Shown here piece by piece: positions 139 to 12,078 of a stretch of DNA of 64,000 nucleotides. This DNA comes from Planctomycetota bacterium. GTDB lineage: Bacteria > Planctomycetota > Planctomycetia > Pirellulales > Pirellulaceae. The DNA is taken from NCBI GenBank assembly GCA_014238905.1, contig JABAAE010000006.1, positions 62,001 through 126,000 of the forward strand, read 5' to 3'. Within the stretch, counting starts at the first letter, position 1, and each line of letters opens with the position of its first letter. The position numbers and the translations under genes are program-made. The notes under the pieces were generated by a model. It was not told the DNA's origin. It did not search any database and saw only the letters and a list, made by a program, of their open reading frames with translations.

Positions 139-1677
139 ATGATGGGTAACGACATTTTGACACTTAATGGCGAGCCTATAACAACACGTCACATCGTGAA
201 CATCGCTCGACATGGCCAAAAAGTGAAGCTTTCGAAGAATTGCATCGAGAACCTGCGGTCGACGCGAAAGCTGCTTGACCAAAAGGTAGCCGGACAGTTG
301 CCGTATTACGGAATCAATACGGGATTCGGAGCACTTGGAAAAATTTCAATTGGCCACGATTCACTCCATTCGCTTCAACAAAACTTGATAAGGTCTCATG
401 CCGCAGGTGTAGGACAAAACCTCTCTCGAGAAGTCGTGCGATCGGTAATGGCCGTTCTTAGTGCATCGCTTTGCAGAGGACATTCGGGCGTCAAAGCAGA
501 AACCATTCTTGTCCTTCTTGAACTTTTGAACCACGACCTTACTCCAAGTATTCCGGAAACAGGATCGGTCGGTGCATCAGGAGACTTGGCAGCTCTTTCT
601 CATATAGCCTTGTCAGTGATCGGCGAGGGAACACTTTCCGATAGAGATGGAAAAATCCTGCCGTCGCACAAAGCAATGCAGCGGGTGGGTATCGTACCGG
701 TGGTTCTGGAAGCTAAAGAAGGTTTAGCCCTGATCAACGGAACCCATCTGATGGCCGGTCGCGGCGCGTTGTTGGTCGAGGACTTTCAAACCGTTTTTAC
801 GGCGTCTTTGTTTGCGACAGCAATGTCCATCGATGCCTGCCGAACCACCCCTAACTCGCTTGACCCGCGAATCCACCGCCTAAGGAGAAATAATGGCCAG
901 ATCAAGGTGGCCGAGCGGATTTTAACGTACCTGCACGGTAGCCAAATTGCCCGATCTCACCAAGGTGATGACCCACGGGTTCAAGATCCCTATTCATTTC
1001 GGTGCTGTCCGGCGGTGTTGGGTGCCGCCTGGGAGGCTTTTGGCTACTTTAGAACGGCAATTACAAACGAATTGGGTGCGGTTACCGACAATCCTCTGCT
1101 TTTTGAAGAAAACAGTGATCTGGAAATTTTGTCGGGAGGAAATTTCCACGGAATGCCCATCGCGATCCCTCTTGATGTTCTTGCGATTTCAATCGCACAC
1201 CTTGCCGGAATAACTGAACGGCGAGTCTTTCATATGCTTTCGGGAATTGACCCGGAAGCCCGATTGCCCACTTTCATGACGCCTCAGGCCGGTTTGCAAA
1301 GTGGATTGATGATCGTTCAATATACCGCTGCGGCCTGCTGTAACGAAATCATAGGACTTGCCAATCCCGCCAGCGTTGCCAACCTCTCTACCAGTGCCGG
1401 AATGGAGGACTACAATTCATTCGGGCCTCGGAGCGCGGCAAAGGCAACGCGTTGTTTGGACTTGGCAAAATCAGTTGTTTCAATAGAACTTTTATGTGCC
1501 TCAAACGGCATCGAACATCATCGCCCTTTACGATCAAGCCAGTCGATTGAAAACGGACTCTCTATCCTGCGGACCAAAGTGACACCCTTGGTAGAAGACC
1601 GATCGCCCAGCAATGACATTGCTGAAATTGAAAAGTTAATAAGTGAAGATTCTTTTCAACTCCACCCTTTATCCTAA
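139..1677 (+). CDS. hutH: Histidine ammonia-lyase (histidase)
   Basis: Cytoplasmic enzyme that deaminates L-histidine to trans-urocanate, the first step of histidine degradation. The 512-residue length fits the family. The Ala-Ser-Gly triplet that cyclises to the MIO cofactor is at residues 146-148 ([11 protein letters not shown]). The active-site tyrosine segment YYGINTGFG is near residues 56-64, QDPYSFRC comes later, and SGGNFHG and GMEDYNSFG lie in the C-terminal half, as expected for the HutH/PAL superfamily. It is the first gene of a tight hutH-hutU-hutG-hutI operon; hutU begins 11 bases after its stop. Phenylalanine/tyrosine ammonia-lyases share the fold, but the neighbours make histidase secure. 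Confidence 0.96.
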
Positions 1678-1688
1678 ACCGTTCAATC

Positions 1689-3356
1689 ATGATTCCTGAA
1701 AAGACAGATTCTCGTGAGATTCGTGCACCTCGAGGAAGTCGATTGCAGTGCAAGACTTGGCAAGCCGAAGCCGCAATGCGGATGCTGATGAATAACCTTG
1801 ACCCTGACGTGGCCGAGTATCCAGAAGAGCTTGTAGTTTACGGCGGAAATGGGAAGGCTGTGCGAAATTGGCAAGCGTTTGACGCAATAGTTGATGCTTT
1901 GATTCAATTGGAACCCGACCAGACTTTACTCGTTCAGTCGGGCAAGCCGGTAGGAGTCGTTCAAACCCATGCCGATGCACCACGGGTTCTAATAGCTAAC
2001 TCGAATCTAGTCCCGGCGTGGGCAACACAGGAAAAATTTGACGAATTGGCCGAAAAAGGCCTGATCATGTACGGCCAGATGACGGCCGGTTCCTGGATAT
2101 ACATCGGTACCCAAGGAATTCTACAGGGTACCTTTGAGACATTTGCCGAGTGTGCTCGCCAACATTTTAGTGGCACGCTGGCGGGGCGTTTGTGTGTCAC
2201 TGCTGGCTGCGGTGGGATGGGTGGAGCTCAACCACTGAGCGTAACCATGAACGGCGGCACCTGTTTGATTGCGGATGTCGACCGATCCCGACTGCAGCGT
2301 CGCAAAGAGAATGGTTATCTCGATGAAATCTATGATGACCTTTCCGCTGGCGTCCAGCGATCCATTCACTTAAAAAACGAAAAGTCGGCGACTAGCGTCG
2401 GCGTGGTATGTAATGCCATAGAATTGCTGGAATATTTGTTGCAAAACAAAATCACGCCAGACGTTTTGACTGATCAAACTAGCGCACATGATGCTCTCAA
2501 TGGGTACATTCCGGTCGGAATGGATAACGAAGCAGCCAATCATTTCCGGAAAGACAATCCGAAGGGCTATCAAAAAGAAAGCCTGACATCGATGAAGAGG
2601 CACGTCACGGCGATGCTACATTTACAGGATCGCGGATCGATCACGTTTGATTATGGAAATAACATCCGGCAACGCGCTTTGGAACAAGGCCTCCAGGAGG
2701 CTTTTGATTTCCCTGGCTTCGTCCCTGCCTATATCCGTCCACAGTTTTGTGTCGGTCGCGGTCCTTTTCGATGGGTCGCCTTATCGGGTGAAGCAAAAGA
2801 TATCCATGTAACAGAAGACGCCTTATTAAAAGCTTTTCCTAATGATAAATCGTTACACCGCTGGATTAAGTTAGCTCGTGAACGAGTTGAGTTCCAGGGC
2901 TTGCCGGCAAGAATTTGCTGGCTTGGGCAAGGAGAACGTAATATCGCGGGAGAAGTCTTTAACGATCTCGTTCGAGACGGGAAGGTATCAGCACCCATTG
3001 TGATCGGCAGAGATCATTTAGATTGTGGTTCGGTAGCTTCGCCAAATCGTGAAACGGAGTCCATGAAGGATGGTTCGGATGCTATTAGTGACTGGGCTTT
3101 ACTCAACGCTATGGTAAATGTTGCCAGCGGCGCGAGCTGGGTCAGTTTTCACCATGGAGGGGGCGTTGGCATTGGCTTTAGCCAACATGCCGGCCAAGTG
3201 ATCGTTGCCGATGGAACAAAGGAAGCCGCTGACAGGTTGCATCGTGTTTTAACCAACGATCCGGCTATGGGTGTGTTTCGCCATTCCGATGCCGGTTATG
3301 AATTAGCACATCAATGTGCCAAGGAACATTCGCTTCACATTCCAAGCAAGGACTAA
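1689..3356 (+). CDS. hutU: Urocanate hydratase (urocanase)
   Basis: Converts urocanate to 4-imidazolone-5-propanoate with tightly bound NAD+ in the cytoplasm; second step of histidine catabolism. At 555 residues it is full length. The NAD-binding segment [11 protein letters not shown] is near residues 173-184. The catalytic cysteine lies in [11 protein letters not shown] and computes to residue 410, the number used for the essential cysteine in characterised urocanases. The block [17 protein letters not shown] and the glycine-rich [12 protein letters not shown] segment are also present. The ATG at 1689 lies 11 bases after the hutH stop; hutG starts a few bases after its own stop, so the operon is continuous. 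Confidence 0.97.
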
Positions 3357-3364
3357 TCGGTAGC

Positions 3365-4312
3365 ATGCGATCGCTTTTATGCTCGGGAAACTGGGGAGAC
3401 ATTCGTGAGAATACCGTAGCCCAATTATTCTGTGATTGGACCGATTTCACTTCCACGTCTACCCCGGTCAACATGTCTACCCCGGCCAAATCGACCGCCA
3501 CTGGCTTTGTGGGTATTGGCCTAGTGGGCCTTGCCGATGATCTGGGAGTAAAGCTAAATAACGGACGGCCTGGTGCAATGGGCGGACCCGATGCCTTTAG
3601 ACAAAGCTTGGCACGATACGGGACACGCAATATCCCTCTTTTCTCTGGAGGCCTCCCACGACTGGTCGACTTTGGGAATGTCGTGGCAGCAACAACATCA
3701 AGTGATTTACAACAAGATTTAAAACGTACCCATCAACACATTTTTCAAATTGTGCAGTTTATTTTGTCGCACCGTCTTTTTCCAATTGGCATCGGCGGTG
3801 GCCACGATTTAACCTTGCCGATGGTCCGTGGCGTAGTCGATTTTTTTGGCCAACCATTCGTCGGGGCATACCTTGACGCTCACTTGGATGTCCGAGCAAC
3901 CATTGGATCTGGTATGCCGTTTCGAATTTTGCTTGAAGAAAAAATCGTTACCGAACTCTCTTGTGCTGGCTTGGATTGTTTTGCAAATTCAGTAGATCAT
4001 CAAAAGTGGTTTACTGAAAATGGAGGAAAGCTAAGTCCTGCTGCAGATATCGATTGGCAAGATTTGGATTTTGTCAGCCTCGATTTGGATGTGATCGACT
4101 CCGCTCATGCTCCCGGAGTAAGCGCCCCCAACCCCAATGGCATGAATCCCAATCAGATCGCCAAAATCGTTAATCTCTGCGGTAAATCCCAACGGCTTAA
4201 GTATTTCGATATTATGGAGTTTTGCCCACCCTTCGATTTGGATAATCGAACCGGTCGTTTGGCCGCGCATCTTTTTTGTCAATTCCTTGCGGGATGGTCT
4301 TCTCGGATTTGA
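3365..4312 (+). CDS. hutG: Formimidoylglutamase (ureohydrolase/arginase family)
   Basis: Predicted to hydrolyse N-formimidoyl-L-glutamate to glutamate and formamide, closing the short Hut pathway. The ureohydrolase metal-binding motifs are visible in order: IGGGHDLTLP, GAYLDAHLDVRA and SLDLDVIDSAHAPG. An open frame reaches back to an ATG at 3314 inside hutU. I chose the ATG at 3365 (MRSLLCSGNWG), 8 bases after the hutU stop, giving 315 residues, close to the family length. Agmatinase or arginase would share the motifs; the position between hutU and hutI makes HutG the best call. Confidence 0.9.
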   Translation: MRSLLCSGNWGDIRENTVAQLFCDWTDFTSTSTPVNMSTPAKSTATGFVGIGLVGLADDLGVKLNNGRPGAMGGPDAFRQSLARYGTRNIPLFSGGLPRLVDFGNVVAATTSSDLQQDLKRTHQHIFQIVQFILSHRLFPIGIGGGHDLTLPMVRGVVDFFGQPFVGAYLDAHLDVRATIGSGMPFRILLEEKIVTELSCAGLDCFANSVDHQKWFTENGGKLSPAADIDWQDLDFVSLDLDVIDSAHAPGVSAPNPNGMNPNQIAKIVNLCGKSQRLKYFDIMEFCPPFDLDNRTGRLAAHLFCQFLAGWSSRI

Positions 4313-4350
4313 ACAACAGCTGTTTTTTTATCAGGTGCCCAATAATTGCC

Positions 4351-5574
4351 ATGAAAAAGATCCTGATCAAGAACGCGCGGTGCATTCTGAAGGGCGAAAT
4401 CAGCGCGCCAATTCGCAAACCGCATCCAGATCGTCTGGAATCCGAATTAAACAACGTCCTGATTTCGGCAACCGGTATAGAAGGGGTCTATTCGACAGCC
4501 CATCCGCATCCGATTGATCCCATGCTAGAGGTAGTTGACGCCGAGGGAAAAGTCCTAATGCCATCCTTTGTAGACTGCCATACCCACTCCTGTTGGAGCG
4601 GAGACCGAGTTGATGAATGGAACTGCAAACTAGCCGGCAAATCCTATTTGGATATCCTGCGCTCTGGAGGCGGCATCATGTCAACCGTTCGTGCCGTCCG
4701 AGACTCAAATCAGGATACGTTAACTGAGGACCTACTTGGGCGTCTTGAGTCAATGCTGGCATTTGGCACAACCACAGTTGAGGTAAAGTCAGGATACGGA
4801 CTGCGCATCGACGACGAGCTAAAGATGCTAAGGGCAATTCAAGAAGCTGGAAATCTCTGGTGCGGACGAGTGGTACCGACAGCCTGTATTGGACACGCGA
4901 TTGATCCTGGGGAGAATCAAGAATCATTTGTGACAAGAACCATCGATGAAGTTCTGCCAGCGGTATCAAACGAGTTTCCGGGGATTGCGATTGACGCCTA
5001 TTGTGAAAATGGCGCATGGAGCCTGAATGAATGCAGGAGATTAACATCGGCGGCAATCAAATTGGGACACCCGATTCGAATCCACGCTGATCAGTTCCAT
5101 TCCCTTGGAATGACTCCCTATGCGATCCAACAGGGATTCGTCAGCGTCGACCACCTGGAAGCAACCACCGAAGAAGATCTCTCGCTACTAGCAAGATCGG
5201 CCACCTTTGGCGTCATGCTTCCGATTTGCGGTCTACATGTCGACATGCGTTTTGCTGATGGCAAGTCTTTTTTGCAACACGGCGGGATGTTAGCTATTGC
5301 CACCAATAACAATCCCGGATCCGCACCATGTGTTTCGATGCAAATGGCAATCGCATTGGCCGTACGGTTCAATCATCTCTCTCCAGCTGAAGCTCTTGTT
5401 GCCAGCACCATCAATCCGTCGCGTTTGCTGGGACTCAACGACACTGGGAATATTTTTGTTGGTCAAAGAGCTGACCTGATGTTGCTCAAAACAAAAGACG
5501 AAAGAAACCTAGCCTATGAAATTGGTGGCAACCTGGTGGACTCGGTGTTTGTTGGAGGTCAAAAAGTGATTTGA
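4351..5574 (+). CDS. hutI: Imidazolonepropionase with Asn at the usual metal-binding Asp
   Basis: Amidohydrolase-superfamily enzyme expected to open the ring of 4-imidazolone-5-propanoate to N-formimidoyl-glutamate. The chosen start at 4351 (MKKILIKNARC) gives 407 residues, a normal length; an upstream in-frame ATG at 4276 would overlap hutG and adds an unlikely N-terminus. Metal-site histidines are His77 and His79 (DCHTH) and His245 (IHADQFH). The late segment reads ATNNNPGSAPC, whereas the family pattern I know is AT-D-xNPG; residue 319 is therefore Asn (AAT, 5305-5307) where the metal/catalytic Asp is expected. The remainder looks intact and the gene is in operon order, so activity is uncertain rather than excluded. 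Confidence 0.9.
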   Translation: MKKILIKNARCILKGEISAPIRKPHPDRLESELNNVLISATGIEGVYSTAHPHPIDPMLEVVDAEGKVLMPSFVDCHTHSCWSGDRVDEWNCKLAGKSYLDILRSGGGIMSTVRAVRDSNQDTLTEDLLGRLESMLAFGTTTVEVKSGYGLRIDDELKMLRAIQEAGNLWCGRVVPTACIGHAIDPGENQESFVTRTIDEVLPAVSNEFPGIAIDAYCENGAWSLNECRRLTSAAIKLGHPIRIHADQFHSLGMTPYAIQQGFVSVDHLEATTEEDLSLLARSATFGVMLPICGLHVDMRFADGKSFLQHGGMLAIATNNNPGSAPCVSMQMAIALAVRFNHLSPAEALVASTINPSRLLGLNDTGNIFVGQRADLMLLKTKDERNLAYEIGGNLVDSVFVGGQKVI

Positions 5575-7207: not shown

Positions 7208-9517
7208 CTAGCGAAATGTCGATCCTGAAACGATTGGCAACTTCGGCACTTGAAATGGGACCGTCGCAAGGGGCCCAACTTTTATAATCGCGATGGGGGA
7301 ATCACCAGCCACTTTCACATTTCGAAAATCCTTCAGTGACTTTCCGATCCCCGTCCACAAGCCATTCTGCAACAAATCACGCCATTGAAACTGAAATTCC
7401 CTTGTCGATTTCTTTTCAATTGAGGCACCGTATATTTCATGCGTCCTCGCAGGAAAACACCTAACCAAATGCGTCACGCCCTTGGTTCGGTCATTTACAA
7501 TCAATTGCACATCGCCAAATGCTGCTTCAACACTGACTTCACTCTTGTTTTCGATGATAACATTGAACGACTCATTTTTTTGTTTGGTCCATCGACTAGA
7601 AATCATCAAACTGGATTTTTTTTCTTCATCGAGGCCCCAATCCAGAGGGTTTTTGACAGGCACCATTTGGGTTGTCATGCTCGGAACCTGGACTTCAAAA
7701 AAGGTAGCTCGATCGTTATCAGCTCCCGCAACAAATCTGTATTTGCCGGCCGACTTGATCGACTGACAAATCCCTTTCACGTTAGACCGCATACCAATGG
7801 ATTCAAAGCCTAACTGATAGCCTGAATTCACAGGCCAAACCTGTTGGTTGGCAACACCGACTCCTGTGCCGTCCACCAGCTTGAAATCCATTGCCATACC
7901 GCTACTGGATCTCCAGGAAATACGATCTATCAGCTTAATGTCGCCTGCCTTTCGCAAGCCACCATCCTTCACTTCAATAATCCTTGAACCAACAAAATCA
8001 GCCTTGTAATTGTAGGAATTAGGTCGTTCACCTGAAGGAACCGACATCACCACAATGCGGTACTCTCCAGGGGACAACATCGCTGTGTTAAATTCAGCTT
8101 TTTCCTTTACACCAATGGCCACGTCTGTCCAAAGTCCGCGGTTCGTATAGGCCATATCCAAATTGAGTGATTGATTGAGGGCAAAGACTCCCGCAAGCAA
8201 ATACTCACAATCCTTCGGAATTCGGCGAACCACAAAGGAAATTGCCTGCCCCTGACTCCGTACCATCCTGAATTCCGTCTTCGGTTGACTCTTGAGGTCA
8301 AGCAAGCGGCTAAATCCACCAATGCTGTAAGAACGCCGCCCGACCTTAAATGACTTGCGAAGGGACAATTGATACCCTGCTTTTTTAAGACCATTCACTT
8401 CAATTGTTGAGCCATTTTCCAAGGCCAACCCGAATGACTCACGCAAAACAAATCCCTGCCTCCCTCCGTTAGGAACGACAAACGGACTGGAATGAGCGAC
8501 CAGTGACAAATTCATATTGATCGATGGATCGTCGCCGGGAATGTCGTATTCGATCACAAGACGGGAAGGTTCAGGGAGCTGTAATTTTCTTGCATCCAAA
8601 AAATCTGCCAAGGAAAAAACCTGAGCTGTGCCGCCCGGAGGAATCACGACGATTCTTAGATTCCCTGGGCGAGGATCTATCGAAAACCTACCATCCTTAT
8701 CCGTTAACACCGGCTTAACCATTTTCGAGAATCCACCAAAACTTCCATAGTGGTTGACTGTCTTACTATTAAATTTCTTCCCATCAAACCCTGAATAGTT
8801 AACGTAGAACTGACCTTCGTAACACACGTAAACCTCCGACTTTTCCACCGGTTGGTTGGCGGCATTCAGAACAACTCCATCTAATGTGGGTAACTCGATG
8901 TAGTTGCCCGTCATTTCAAACTCGACCTTTGCAGTCGATAGGACAACAGGTCGCTCAGCGACATCAGTGATCTCTAGGGACACTTCAAATTCGTTTTTCC
9001 CTACCGATAAAACTTCCAATTTCCCTTTCTTGAGAGCCCCTGATTTCTCAGTCGCGTGCAACTTCAACCACTGTCTGCCATCCAGTTGAATGAGAAAGAA
9101 ATTGTCGCGTGTCTCGCCATTTCCCAGTGCTGAAACCCGACGAACATCAGGCGTGTTCCAGCGGTACTGATGGTCATTCAGCGTCAAAACTAAATTCGCA
9201 GAAGCAAAGCTAAACTCCCTGGGCAATTTACCTCGGTTGCGGATCTGAATTGCAAACAAAGGAGTTTCGGCAGTTCCCCATTTTGTTTTGGCGGTCGAAT
9301 CAATCCGAATCGACATGCCCTCAATCTCGGGACCCCAATCCGTCTTGATTGCCGGATTTTTCTGCTGCGTCGTTTTTTTTTCATCTTTTGAGGACGGCAA
9401 CTGCTCACCAGCCTGACGAGCCTCGGCCAAATCGTCAAACGGTGTAGTCAAGCAAACGAATAAACAAAAAAAACGAACGGTGCTTTTCAAATTGAATCGG
9501 CCTACAAACGGTTCCAT
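7208..9517 (-). CDS. Large secreted protein with carboxypeptidase-regulatory-like domain
   Basis: 769-residue exported protein. An N-terminal hydrophobic segment (about residues 12-28) after a basic stretch looks like a signal peptide. Around residues 60-200 lies a beta-rich module opening with WGPEIEGMSIRI and containing an IRNRGKLP element. Around residues 214-310 is a carboxypeptidase-regulatory/CNA-B-like domain (VVLNAANQPVEKSEVYV, then LTDKDGRFSIDP). A further module near residues 640-700 again opens with WGLDEEKKSS and an IENKSEVS element, suggesting an internal repeat of the first. No catalytic motif was seen. The combination resembles planctomycete cell-envelope proteins with transthyretin-like folds; role unknown. 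Confidence 0.8.
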   Translation of the reverse strand: MEPFVGRFNLKSTVRFFCLFVCLTTPFDDLAEARQAGEQLPSSKDEKKTTQQKNPAIKTDWGPEIEGMSIRIDSTAKTKWGTAETPLFAIQIRNRGKLPREFSFASANLVLTLNDHQYRWNTPDVRRVSALGNGETRDNFFLIQLDGRQWLKLHATEKSGALKKGKLEVLSVGKNEFEVSLEITDVAERPVVLSTAKVEFEMTGNYIELPTLDGVVLNAANQPVEKSEVYVCYEGQFYVNYSGFDGKKFNSKTVNHYGSFGGFSKMVKPVLTDKDGRFSIDPRPGNLRIVVIPPGGTAQVFSLADFLDARKLQLPEPSRLVIEYDIPGDDPSINMNLSLVAHSSPFVVPNGGRQGFVLRESFGLALENGSTIEVNGLKKAGYQLSLRKSFKVGRRSYSIGGFSRLLDLKSQPKTEFRMVRSQGQAISFVVRRIPKDCEYLLAGVFALNQSLNLDMAYTNRGLWTDVAIGVKEKAEFNTAMLSPGEYRIVVMSVPSGERPNSYNYKADFVGSRIIEVKDGGLRKAGDIKLIDRISWRSSSGMAMDFKLVDGTGVGVANQQVWPVNSGYQLGFESIGMRSNVKGICQSIKSAGKYRFVAGADNDRATFFEVQVPSMTTQMVPVKNPLDWGLDEEKKSSLMISSRWTKQKNESFNVIIENKSEVSVEAAFGDVQLIVNDRTKGVTHLVRCFPARTHEIYGASIEKKSTREFQFQWRDLLQNGLWTGIGKSLKDFRNVKVAGDSPIAIIKVGPLATVPFQVPKLPIVSGSTFR

Positions 9518-9930
9518 AACTAATCTATCAACGTAAATAGTGCACTTGGAATGCCATGCTCAGGTCTTAACAATCAGTCTAACCCAAGCTGTTACGGGAT
9601 AATATTAGAAGAGTATGCCAGAAAACGCCATGAGGATGTTGAAACCAAACCAATCGCTTATCGATCTGATTTTTTCCAAACCGAACCGTGATCACATTTC
9701 CACATCTCGCGGTTGGCAAATCATGTGGCAGGCCAATATATTGTAGAAATGCAATCGTCGGGTGGACAGCATCGAACCAACGATTCGACGATGGTCTGCA
9801 GAATCAGATTCACTTGCGATTACCGTTAACCGACTCGCAACCAAGTTCGGCGGCCCCAAACTCGGCAACCGACTTACTGGCAATCAATGCCTTAAAAAGT
9901 CAATCGAGTGACACCAGAAAGGAACAGCAA
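9518..9930. other. Divergent intergenic region
   Basis: About 410 bases between the divergently transcribed secreted-protein gene (minus) and the prolyl oligopeptidase gene (plus). An open frame from 9688 runs in frame into the peptidase but has no peptidase-like sequence or ribosome binding site, so I treat it as non-coding. Promoters for both genes should lie here; none is clear by eye. Confidence 0.4.
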
Positions 9931-12078
9931 ATGCGTAGTCTTCTAGGTTTTTCGTTATTTTTCATGATAGGAATCAACTTGACCGGTCAGGATACAAATG
10001 GTTCGGGATGGAAATATCCGAATTCAAAAACAGTGGATCAGGTAGACAATTATTTTGGCACAGAAATCGCTGATCCTTACCGTTGGCTTGAAAATGATGT
10101 TCGTGTAGACAAGGAGGTTGAAAAATGGGTCGCTGATCAAAATGAACTGACATTTGGGTACCTCAAGACGCTCCCTTTTCGTGAAGAGATCGAGGCCAGG
10201 ATTACAAAGCTCTGGAATTATGAGAAATACGGGCTACCTCGGAAAGCTGGCAACAAATATTACTATTCAAAAAATAACGGACTACAAAACCAGTCCGTTA
10301 TCTATCAAGTTGATTCACTCGATGGCCAACCTAAGATTCTTGTTGATCCTAACCAATGGTCCGACGACGGAACCGTTGCCCTAGCCGGTATGTCATTCAG
10401 CCACGACGGCAATTTGATGGCCTATGGGATTCAGGATGGAGGTTCGGATTGGCGAACATGGAAAGTCATGGACGTACAGTCCGGCAACATTCTTTCGGAC
10501 GAACTGAATTGGATCAAGTTCAGCGGCATTTCATGGTCTGCCGATAACAAGGGATTCTATTACGGCCGTTATGACGAACCACAAAAAGGGGAAAAATTCC
10601 AAAGCCTGAACAAGGATATGAAGGTCTATTATCATCGCGTTGGAACACCTCAGAATGACGACAAGCTGATACACGCAAGTCCTGAAAATCCTGATTGGGG
10701 ATTCCAGACCAACGCCACCGAAGACGGAAAATACCTTGTCATTACCGTCTGGAAAGGGACCGCAGATAAGTATCGAATCAAGTTCAAAGACCTTTCGGAC
10801 ACAGACAATCCAATGGTTGATCTAATCGATAATTTTGAGAATGAGTACAGCTTTATCGGTAACGAGGGTCCCTGGTTTTATTTCAAATCAGACTGGAAAG
10901 CACCCAAAAAATGCGTACTGGCGATCAACGTCAATCATCCCAAATCAGAAAACTGGAAAGTGATCGTTCCACAAGCCAGTGAAACCCTTGACAGCGCTGG
11001 AATCGTCGGTGGAAAGCTGGTGGCAGATTATTTAAAAGATGCAAAGACTCAAATTAAGATTTTCGACTTGGAAGGGCGTTTCGTCCGAGAGGTCAAATTT
11101 CCCGGAATTGGTACAGCGTCGGGTTTTGGGGGCAAGCAGGATCAAGCGGAGACGTTTTATTCATTTTCCAGCTTTGCAACTCCACCGACCACCTTCCGGT
11201 ATGATATGGACACAGGAAAAAGCTCGGTTGTCCGCCGCGCGAAAGTCGATTTTGACCCTCAGGACTATGTGGTCAAACAAGTCTTTTTTGAAAGCCAGGA
11301 TGGAACAAAAATCCCGATGTTTATTGCACACCGGCGTGACCTTAAACTGAATGGCACCAATCCAACGCTATTGTATGGCTACGGCGGTTTCAGTATTTCT
11401 CTGACTCCGAGTTTCTCAATCAGCCGATTACAATGGATGGAAATGGGGGGGGTGTTCGCGATGCCCAACCTACGTGGCGGCGGAGAATATGGAGAACCCT
11501 GGCACTTGGCTGGCACCAAAACTCAAAAACAGAACGTATTTAACGACTTTATTGCAGCTGCTGAATTCCTAATCGACAACCAGTACACCAGCCGGCAAAA
11601 CCTGGCGATTCAGGGAGGCAGTAATGGTGGTCTGCTGGTTGGTGCCTGCATGACTCAACGCCCAGACCTATACGCGGCCTGTTTACCTGCAGTCGGCGTG
11701 ATGGACATGCTTCGATTTCACAAATTCACCGCAGGTCGTTTTTGGGTAGACGATTATGGTTCCAGTGAAAAGAGCCTTGAAGAATTCAAGGCCCTCGCTG
11801 CGTATTCACCCTATCACAATATTCACGATGGAGTGGCGTATCCACCGACGCTGGTCACCACCGCTGACACCGACGACCGGGTCGTCCCGGGCCATAGCTT
11901 TAAGTTTGCCGCCAGACTGCAGAAATCGCAAAGTGGCAGTAATCCTACCCTGATTCGAATTGAAACCAGGGCAGGACACGGTGCAGGAAAACCGACTTCA
12001 AAGATTATCGAGGAGATTGCCGACCAGTGGGCCTTCTTGGTCAAACACCTCAAGGCCAAGCCCCGTTTTGAGGAATAA
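9931..12078 (+). CDS. Prolyl oligopeptidase family serine peptidase (S9A), exported
   Basis: Cleaves short peptides after proline. The start at 9931 (MRSLLGFSLF) is preceded by AAGGAAC and yields a signal-peptide-like N-terminus and 715 residues, matching the family. The N-terminal part carries the typical YPNSKTVDQVDNYFG and DPYRWLEN signatures, followed by a beta-propeller. The catalytic triad is readable in the C-terminal hydrolase domain: Ser564 in GGSNGGLL, Asp648 in TDDRVVPGH and His683 in RAGHGAGKP. A run of eight G at 11445-11452 lies inside the coding sequence. The gene stands alone, ended by a strong hairpin. The predicted site of action is periplasmic, from the signal peptide. Confidence 0.93.
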   Translation: MRSLLGFSLFFMIGINLTGQDTNGSGWKYPNSKTVDQVDNYFGTEIADPYRWLENDVRVDKEVEKWVADQNELTFGYLKTLPFREEIEARITKLWNYEKYGLPRKAGNKYYYSKNNGLQNQSVIYQVDSLDGQPKILVDPNQWSDDGTVALAGMSFSHDGNLMAYGIQDGGSDWRTWKVMDVQSGNILSDELNWIKFSGISWSADNKGFYYGRYDEPQKGEKFQSLNKDMKVYYHRVGTPQNDDKLIHASPENPDWGFQTNATEDGKYLVITVWKGTADKYRIKFKDLSDTDNPMVDLIDNFENEYSFIGNEGPWFYFKSDWKAPKKCVLAINVNHPKSENWKVIVPQASETLDSAGIVGGKLVADYLKDAKTQIKIFDLEGRFVREVKFPGIGTASGFGGKQDQAETFYSFSSFATPPTTFRYDMDTGKSSVVRRAKVDFDPQDYVVKQVFFESQDGTKIPMFIAHRRDLKLNGTNPTLLYGYGGFSISLTPSFSISRLQWMEMGGVFAMPNLRGGGEYGEPWHLAGTKTQKQNVFNDFIAAAEFLIDNQYTSRQNLAIQGGSNGGLLVGACMTQRPDLYAACLPAVGVMDMLRFHKFTAGRFWVDDYGSSEKSLEEFKALAAYSPYHNIHDGVAYPPTLVTTADTDDRVVPGHSFKFAARLQKSQSGSNPTLIRIETRAGHGAGKPTSKIIEEIADQWAFLVKHLKAKPRFEE

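Follow-up and report, generated by a model that had tools for sequence, protein, structure and literature searches.

We analysed a stretch of 64,000 nucleotides (the window) from a planctomycete of the family Pirellulaceae. Genes for histidine degradation lie together on its forward strand and were assigned as follows.

139–1677, + strand: hutH, histidine ammonia-lyase (NF006871, 549.7 bits, cut-off 524; TIGR01225, 534.1 bits, just below the cut-off of 539.15)
1689–3356, + strand: hutU, urocanate hydratase (TIGR01228, 903.7 bits, cut-off 375)
3314–4312, + strand: hutG-like formimidoylglutamase (best family TIGR01227, 158.8 bits, under the cut-off of 229.15)
4351–5574, + strand: hutI, imidazolonepropionase of the Asn319 type, 407 amino acids (open reading frame, TIGR01224, fold model)

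The hutI gene starts with ATG, its frame is intact and without internal stop, and it is the only HutI match in the genome; the genes for the other histidine-degrading steps lie beside it (139–4312). The longest open reading frame of the hutG-like gene overlaps the 3′ end of hutU by 43 bases, so its true start is probably downstream of 3314. Against the imidazolonepropionase equivalog TIGR01224 the HutI protein scored 350.7 bits (curated cut-off 298.15). Its predicted structure (pLDDT 87.6, pTM 0.90) found its best fold match in the Bacillus subtilis enzyme 2bb0, with a Z-score of 53.8, an rmsd of 1.9 over 402 residues and a TM-score of 0.93. Based on the family model, the predicted fold and the gene context, we identify the protein as HutI.

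Residue 319 and the metal site of HutI

The original prediction stated that codon 5305–5307 (AAT) places Asn where HutI carries a metal-binding Asp, and that His77, His79, His245 and residue 319 correspond to His80, His82, His249 and Asp324 of the Bacillus enzyme. Both statements hold. Residue 319 lies in the sequence A-T-N-N-N-P-G, the family motif being (T/S)-D-x-N-P-G, and it aligned with the motif Asp in each of four solved HutI sequences (2oof, 2puz, 2gok, 2bb0); counting along the 2bb0 alignment returned the same four equivalences. The solved enzymes are those of B. subtilis (2bb0/2g3f) and Agrobacterium (2gok/2puz) and an environmental HutI (2oof/2q09). Across 195 non-redundant HutI sequences covering the site, position 319 was occupied by Asp in 140 and Asn in 55 and by nothing else, and Asn321, Pro322 and Gly323 were invariant (195/195), which puts the placement of Asn319 beyond chance. 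The features of the site are the following.

4579–4587, + strand: His77-x-His79, strand-1 metal ligands (His80/His82 of 2bb0; invariant in 195 HutI)
4903–4905, + strand: Asp185, acidic position peculiar to the Asn subfamily of Planctomycetota (nearly all Asp-type HutI have Pro)
5083–5085, + strand: His245, metal ligand (His249 of 2bb0; invariant in 195 HutI)
5092–5094, + strand: Gln248 (Glu252 of 2bb0; Gln in every Asn319 enzyme)
5152–5154, + strand: His268, proposed general base (His272 of 2bb0; counterpart of His249 of AtzC by order in the site)
5305–5307, + strand: Asn319 (AAT), at the strand-8 site where B. subtilis HutI has its metal-ligand Asp324 (sequence, alignment to four solved HutI and 54 of 54 Asn-type relatives)

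The remaining pocket residues (H77, H79, R86, Y99, Y149, H182, H245 and H268) are all present in the window enzyme and invariant in the 195 sequences, the 55 Asn-type ones included; His268 was also invariant in all 231 loci that were read. Beside them, Gln248 was found in 55 of 55 Asn-type enzymes, the 140 Asp-type enzymes being divided between Gln (90) and Glu (50) at this position.

The Asn319 subfamily of Planctomycetota

HutI is rare in the order to which the window belongs, with matches in 17 of 396 genomes at an E-value of 1e-20. In a search of the phylum, the closest homologues were 48–62% identical to the window protein and came nearly all from the class that has Phycisphaerae metagenome-assembled genomes as its named members (L025–L029). 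Asn was present at 319 in the 20 top loci below the window itself, as it was in L013 and L025–L028; L029 ends before residue 319 and was counted in neither state. The next nine loci of the phylum search carried Asp, and the order of the window also contains 15 loci of the Asp type. Within the Phycisphaerae-type class, 110 of 298 genomes had a HutI. All 49 high-scoring enzymes (409–655 bits) carried Asn, whereas Asp was found in all 10 that were read out of the 61 lower-scoring ones (350 bits or less). Beyond this class, Asn occurred in the window and in one further genome of its order. Comparison with close relatives, which the original prediction had proposed, thus shows Asn to be normal in this clade, in every close homologue covering the site. 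Both Asn codons are used in the Asn type, AAC in 44 cases and AAT in nine.

A tree of 65 HutI sequences, for which we masked columns 185 and 319 and removed five duplicate rows, separated all 26 Asn-type rows together with L029 from the rest by a branch of length 0.6 with an SH-aLRT support of 100. The window HutI fell inside the Asn group, among rows of the family that we coded f24, and the HutU and HutH trees showed the same split. Near-identical rows were likewise dropped from the comparisons of subfamily-specific columns and of loci from the Bacteroidota phylum. The locus counts show Asn319 to be fixed in a deep-branching HutI subfamily of Planctomycetota, and the HutI tree gives it a single origin there. 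The most divergent member, L107 (genome G758), combines Asn319 with Pro185, Leu at 223 and an altered HxH context (H-A-H-L).

Nearly all Asn-type genomes contain a single HutI match. At the 26 Asn-type loci with flanking sequence, we identified hutG in 13, hutU in 10 and hutH in six, with at least one of these genes in 19; the other seven had no further hut gene in the flanking stretch, some of the contigs being short. The hutG genes that adjoin HutI at 13 of these loci are similar to the divergent hutG-like gene of the window. For 14 pairs within the subfamily, dN/dS ranged from 0.045 to 0.53 (the highest value being that of L105/L166) and was 0.25 or lower in 10, as expected of enzymes under purifying selection.

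In the trees, HutI, HutU and HutH of the window all group with Phycisphaerae-type genomes, and a genome of the same genus (G001) gave no HutI match. The simplest reading is that the hut genes were probably acquired horizontally from a Phycisphaerae-type relative, with loss of the hut genes in G001 as a possible alternative. Contamination of the contig was considered and rejected: the peptidase gene at 9688–12078 is 79% identical to that of G001 and only 40–47% identical to its counterparts in Phycisphaerae genomes of the Asn type, which assigns the contig to its host. The hut genes (139–5574) are missing from G001, in which the KDPG aldolase and peptidase genes found downstream in the window adjoin each other. 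In the window, an open reading frame of 769 residues (7208–9517, − strand) sits between the aldolase and peptidase genes; it has no match in the corresponding stretch of G001.

Exchange of Asp and Asn in a second lineage

We identified HutI matches in 74 Pseudomonadota genomes, 136 genomes of the Bacteroidota phylum and 40 Bacillota genomes, and read residue 319 in the 30 best-scoring loci of each group and in six more. Genome G1046 was assigned to the Bacteroidota through the Flavobacteriales locus L030. Asn was found in none of the 31 Pseudomonadota and none of the 30 Bacillota loci examined, and in one of 35 loci (L214, genome G1380) in the phylum of L030. As only the best-scoring loci were read at 319, the number of independent origins of Asn is a lower bound. 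Asp was kept in 140 of the 195 HutI and in 61 of the 61 Pseudomonadota and Bacillota loci examined, which argues that Asp matters in most backgrounds.

In the neighbourhood of G1380, comprising 30 HutI loci from this genome and its relatives, seven enzymes carried Asn and 23 Asp, and the proteins were 60–89% identical. In G1380 itself, a single stretch carries hutU, hutI, FtcD and a cyclohydrolase-like gene. The tree of these loci needed three changes between Asp and Asn, all three forced by well supported branches. One Asp-type enzyme (L278) was nested, with support, among Asn rows; it shares 81% identity with the Asn-type L276. According to this tree, Asp and Asn have replaced one another three times or more within a group of closely related enzymes, in an unrelated lineage.

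Position 248 differed between the two types in this lineage, with Gln in seven of seven Asn-type against three of 23 Asp-type enzymes, the other 20 having Glu. Glu248 was never found together with Asn319, either among the 55 Asn-type sequences of the main set or among these seven. Two enzymes, L278 and L282, carried Gln248 with Asp319 and adjoined the Asn rows, and the second-lineage tree fits the suggestion that Glu changed to Gln at 248 first and Asp to Asn at 319 second. An independent-pairs test of 248 against 319 had only three pairs, of which one was in favour (in most pairings), none was against and the rest showed no difference (sign test p = 1). L218, which formed an odd and very long branch in the neighbourhood tree, was dropped from the tree used for this test.

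Several HutI loci had unusual reading frames. Two from the Bacillota phylum (G1507:C1:770796-772211 and G1593:C1:1824483-1825997) were apparently split near residue 150 by in-frame segments of about 270–380 bases; the frames that hold them are open over 576 and 630 residues, and the segments would be insertions in the enzyme. The matches at G1319:C10:254861-255994 and G1415:C98:1574-2698 (L275) contain in-frame stops, two TAA and one TGA, for which pseudogenes, recoding and errors are candidate explanations.

Proposed catalysis with Asn319 and comparison with known amidohydrolases

Mononuclear amidohydrolases are widely held to need the strand-8 Asp as base or metal ligand, and annotation pipelines and readers call an enzyme dead when this Asp is lost. 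The closest fold to the window HutI model outside HutI itself was that of AtzC (Z-score 36.9, 15% identity). In AtzC, both His249 and Asp303 form hydrogen bonds with the water on the metal; kcat was 90.4 per second for D303N and 35.8 for D303A, compared with 26.2 in the wild type, whereas H249A had no detectable activity (PMC4577212). The premise of the original prediction that this Asp binds metal and activates water is thus weaker than stated, both Asp303 variants of AtzC being fully active.

Based on the fixed subfamily, the retained pocket, purifying selection, the hut neighbourhood, the repeated exchange of Asp and Asn and the AtzC kinetics, we consider it probable that the window encodes a working imidazolonepropionase from an ancient subfamily of Planctomycetota, whose strand-8 Asp has given way for good to Asn. 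The original prediction had left three options, namely an enzyme that uses Asn, a pathway impaired at step three, and a G-to-A change or sequence error; of these the first is the best supported, the second is unlikely and the third is excluded. In the mechanism that we propose, His77, His79 and His245 would hold one divalent metal. Asn319 would be a neutral partner, whose side-chain oxygen may hold the water or the metal or which may touch neither. By analogy with AtzC and TrzN, His268, not an Asp, would take the proton from the metal-bound water, and the resulting hydroxide would open the imidazolone ring to give formimidoylglutamate. Gln instead of Glu at 248 probably permitted the change at 319.

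The alternative that survives best, though we judge it unlikely, is a rearranged site in the Planctomycetota subfamily, in which Asp185, three residues past the pocket residue His182, does the job of the lost Asp319. The pairing was attractive at first, as Asp or (once) Glu occupies 185 in 53 of 54 Planctomycetota Asn-type enzymes and in none of 48 Asp-type enzymes. Most Asn-type enzymes also have a loop after His182 that is shorter by two residues, and in the predicted structure residue 185 comes after the third barrel strand (E173–181). However, Asn319 occurs with Pro185 in L107 and in seven of seven Asn-type enzymes of the second lineage, so Asp185 is not needed for Asn319, which weakens strict compensation. 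The same long branch carries changes in at least 15 columns, and the pairing may therefore reflect one event.

Somewhat less likely still is an impaired or repurposed protein, a poor or dead hydrolase kept for another role, with step three left to another enzyme or to the decay of imidazolonepropionate, which is unstable and may decay by itself. The loss of a supposed metal ligand and the seven of 26 Asn-type loci without a visible hut neighbour would agree with this. Against it stand the invariance of the other pocket residues, purifying selection, the hut neighbours at 19 of the 26 loci, the single HutI match in nearly all these genomes, the repeated exchange with active-type relatives and the activity of AtzC D303N (PMC4577212).

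We regard as improbable a change of substrate, whereby the Asn type would open another imidazolone or a hydantoin ring. Several columns close to conserved motifs are peculiar to the subfamily (W82, W223, R243, R339, E384, R385) and HutG is divergent, both compatible with such a change, but R86, Y99, Y149 and H182 are unchanged, the second-lineage Asp and Asn forms are up to 81% identical, and the adjoining HutU scores as urocanate hydratase rather than as the thiourocanate or S-methyl thiourocanate enzyme. Deamidation of Asn319 after translation, which would give a working enzyme with Asp, is chemically possible for any Asn and is fast when Gly follows; we give it hardly any weight, since Gly follows Asn319 in none of the 55 sequences, in which the next residue is varied or bulky (C 15, F 10, L 7, A 5 and others). 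A sequencing error or recent G-to-A lesion in this genome, although AAT and GAT differ by one base, is refuted by Asn in every close homologue across many separate assemblies, with both Asn codons in use.

The sequence comparisons suggest that the strand-8 Asp is less indispensable than textbooks hold. Evolution would have tried the change from Asp to Asn repeatedly in a single enzyme, on one occasion long enough ago to mark a subfamily, and natural pairs such as the 81%-identical L276 (Asn) and L278 (Asp) allow a direct test of whether Asp or the strand-6 His activates water. The case also warns that one lost "catalytic" residue is poor ground for declaring a pathway broken. More tentatively, and with rather less than even confidence, we propose that Asn319 HutI represents a natural amidohydrolase metal-site class in a core amino-acid pathway, in which Asn and Gln stand for Asp and Glu/Gln, the ring would be opened without either of the two pocket carboxylates, His268 would be the sole base, and the change at 248 came first and permitted that at 319.

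The window HutI resembles the solved HutI enzymes in fold, length, the HxH motif, His245, His268, the pocket Arg/Tyr/Tyr/His and its position in a hut cluster; it differs from them at strand 8 (Asn, not Asp), at residue 185 (Asp, not Pro) and in about 15 more subfamily-specific columns. We found no report of this variant in a literature search on HutI with Asn, planctomycete HutI and Asn in amidohydrolase metal sites, conducted largely outside subscription papers. AtzC, an N-isopropylammelide isopropylaminohydrolase, is described as holding one metal with three His and an Asp (PMC4577212), and differs from Asn-type HutI in that its natural enzyme has the Asp and acts on another substrate. Two published results, and the retention of Asp by most HutI, speak against the role proposed for His268. 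In a two-metal amidohydrolase, Ala at the equivalent Asp (D583A) is reported to have abolished activity (PMC13081902). For AtzA, Asp327 serves as the base in one of the two mechanisms offered in the account cited here (PMC4356373). The triazine hydrolase TrzN is, like Asn-type HutI, a mononuclear amidohydrolase that naturally lacks the strand-8 Asp; its Thr325 at this place is described in that account as unique in the family, and His274 bonds to the metal-bound water (PMC4356373). Unlike Asn-type HutI, TrzN has Thr and not Asn, and it is a narrow-spread herbicide degrader and not a subfamily of an amino-acid pathway. TrzN also uses Glu241 where Asn-type HutI has Gln248, a candidate equivalence by position only (PMC4356373). 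The "ninth subgroup" of the TrzN type, as defined in the same source by Thr at strand 8 (PMC4356373), does not include the window enzyme, which has Asn. The mononuclear site of subtype III is made of His, His, His and Asp, as in AtzC and AtzA; by analogy the window HutI would work like this subtype, yet with Asn319 it is a non-member by the strand-8 Asp definition.
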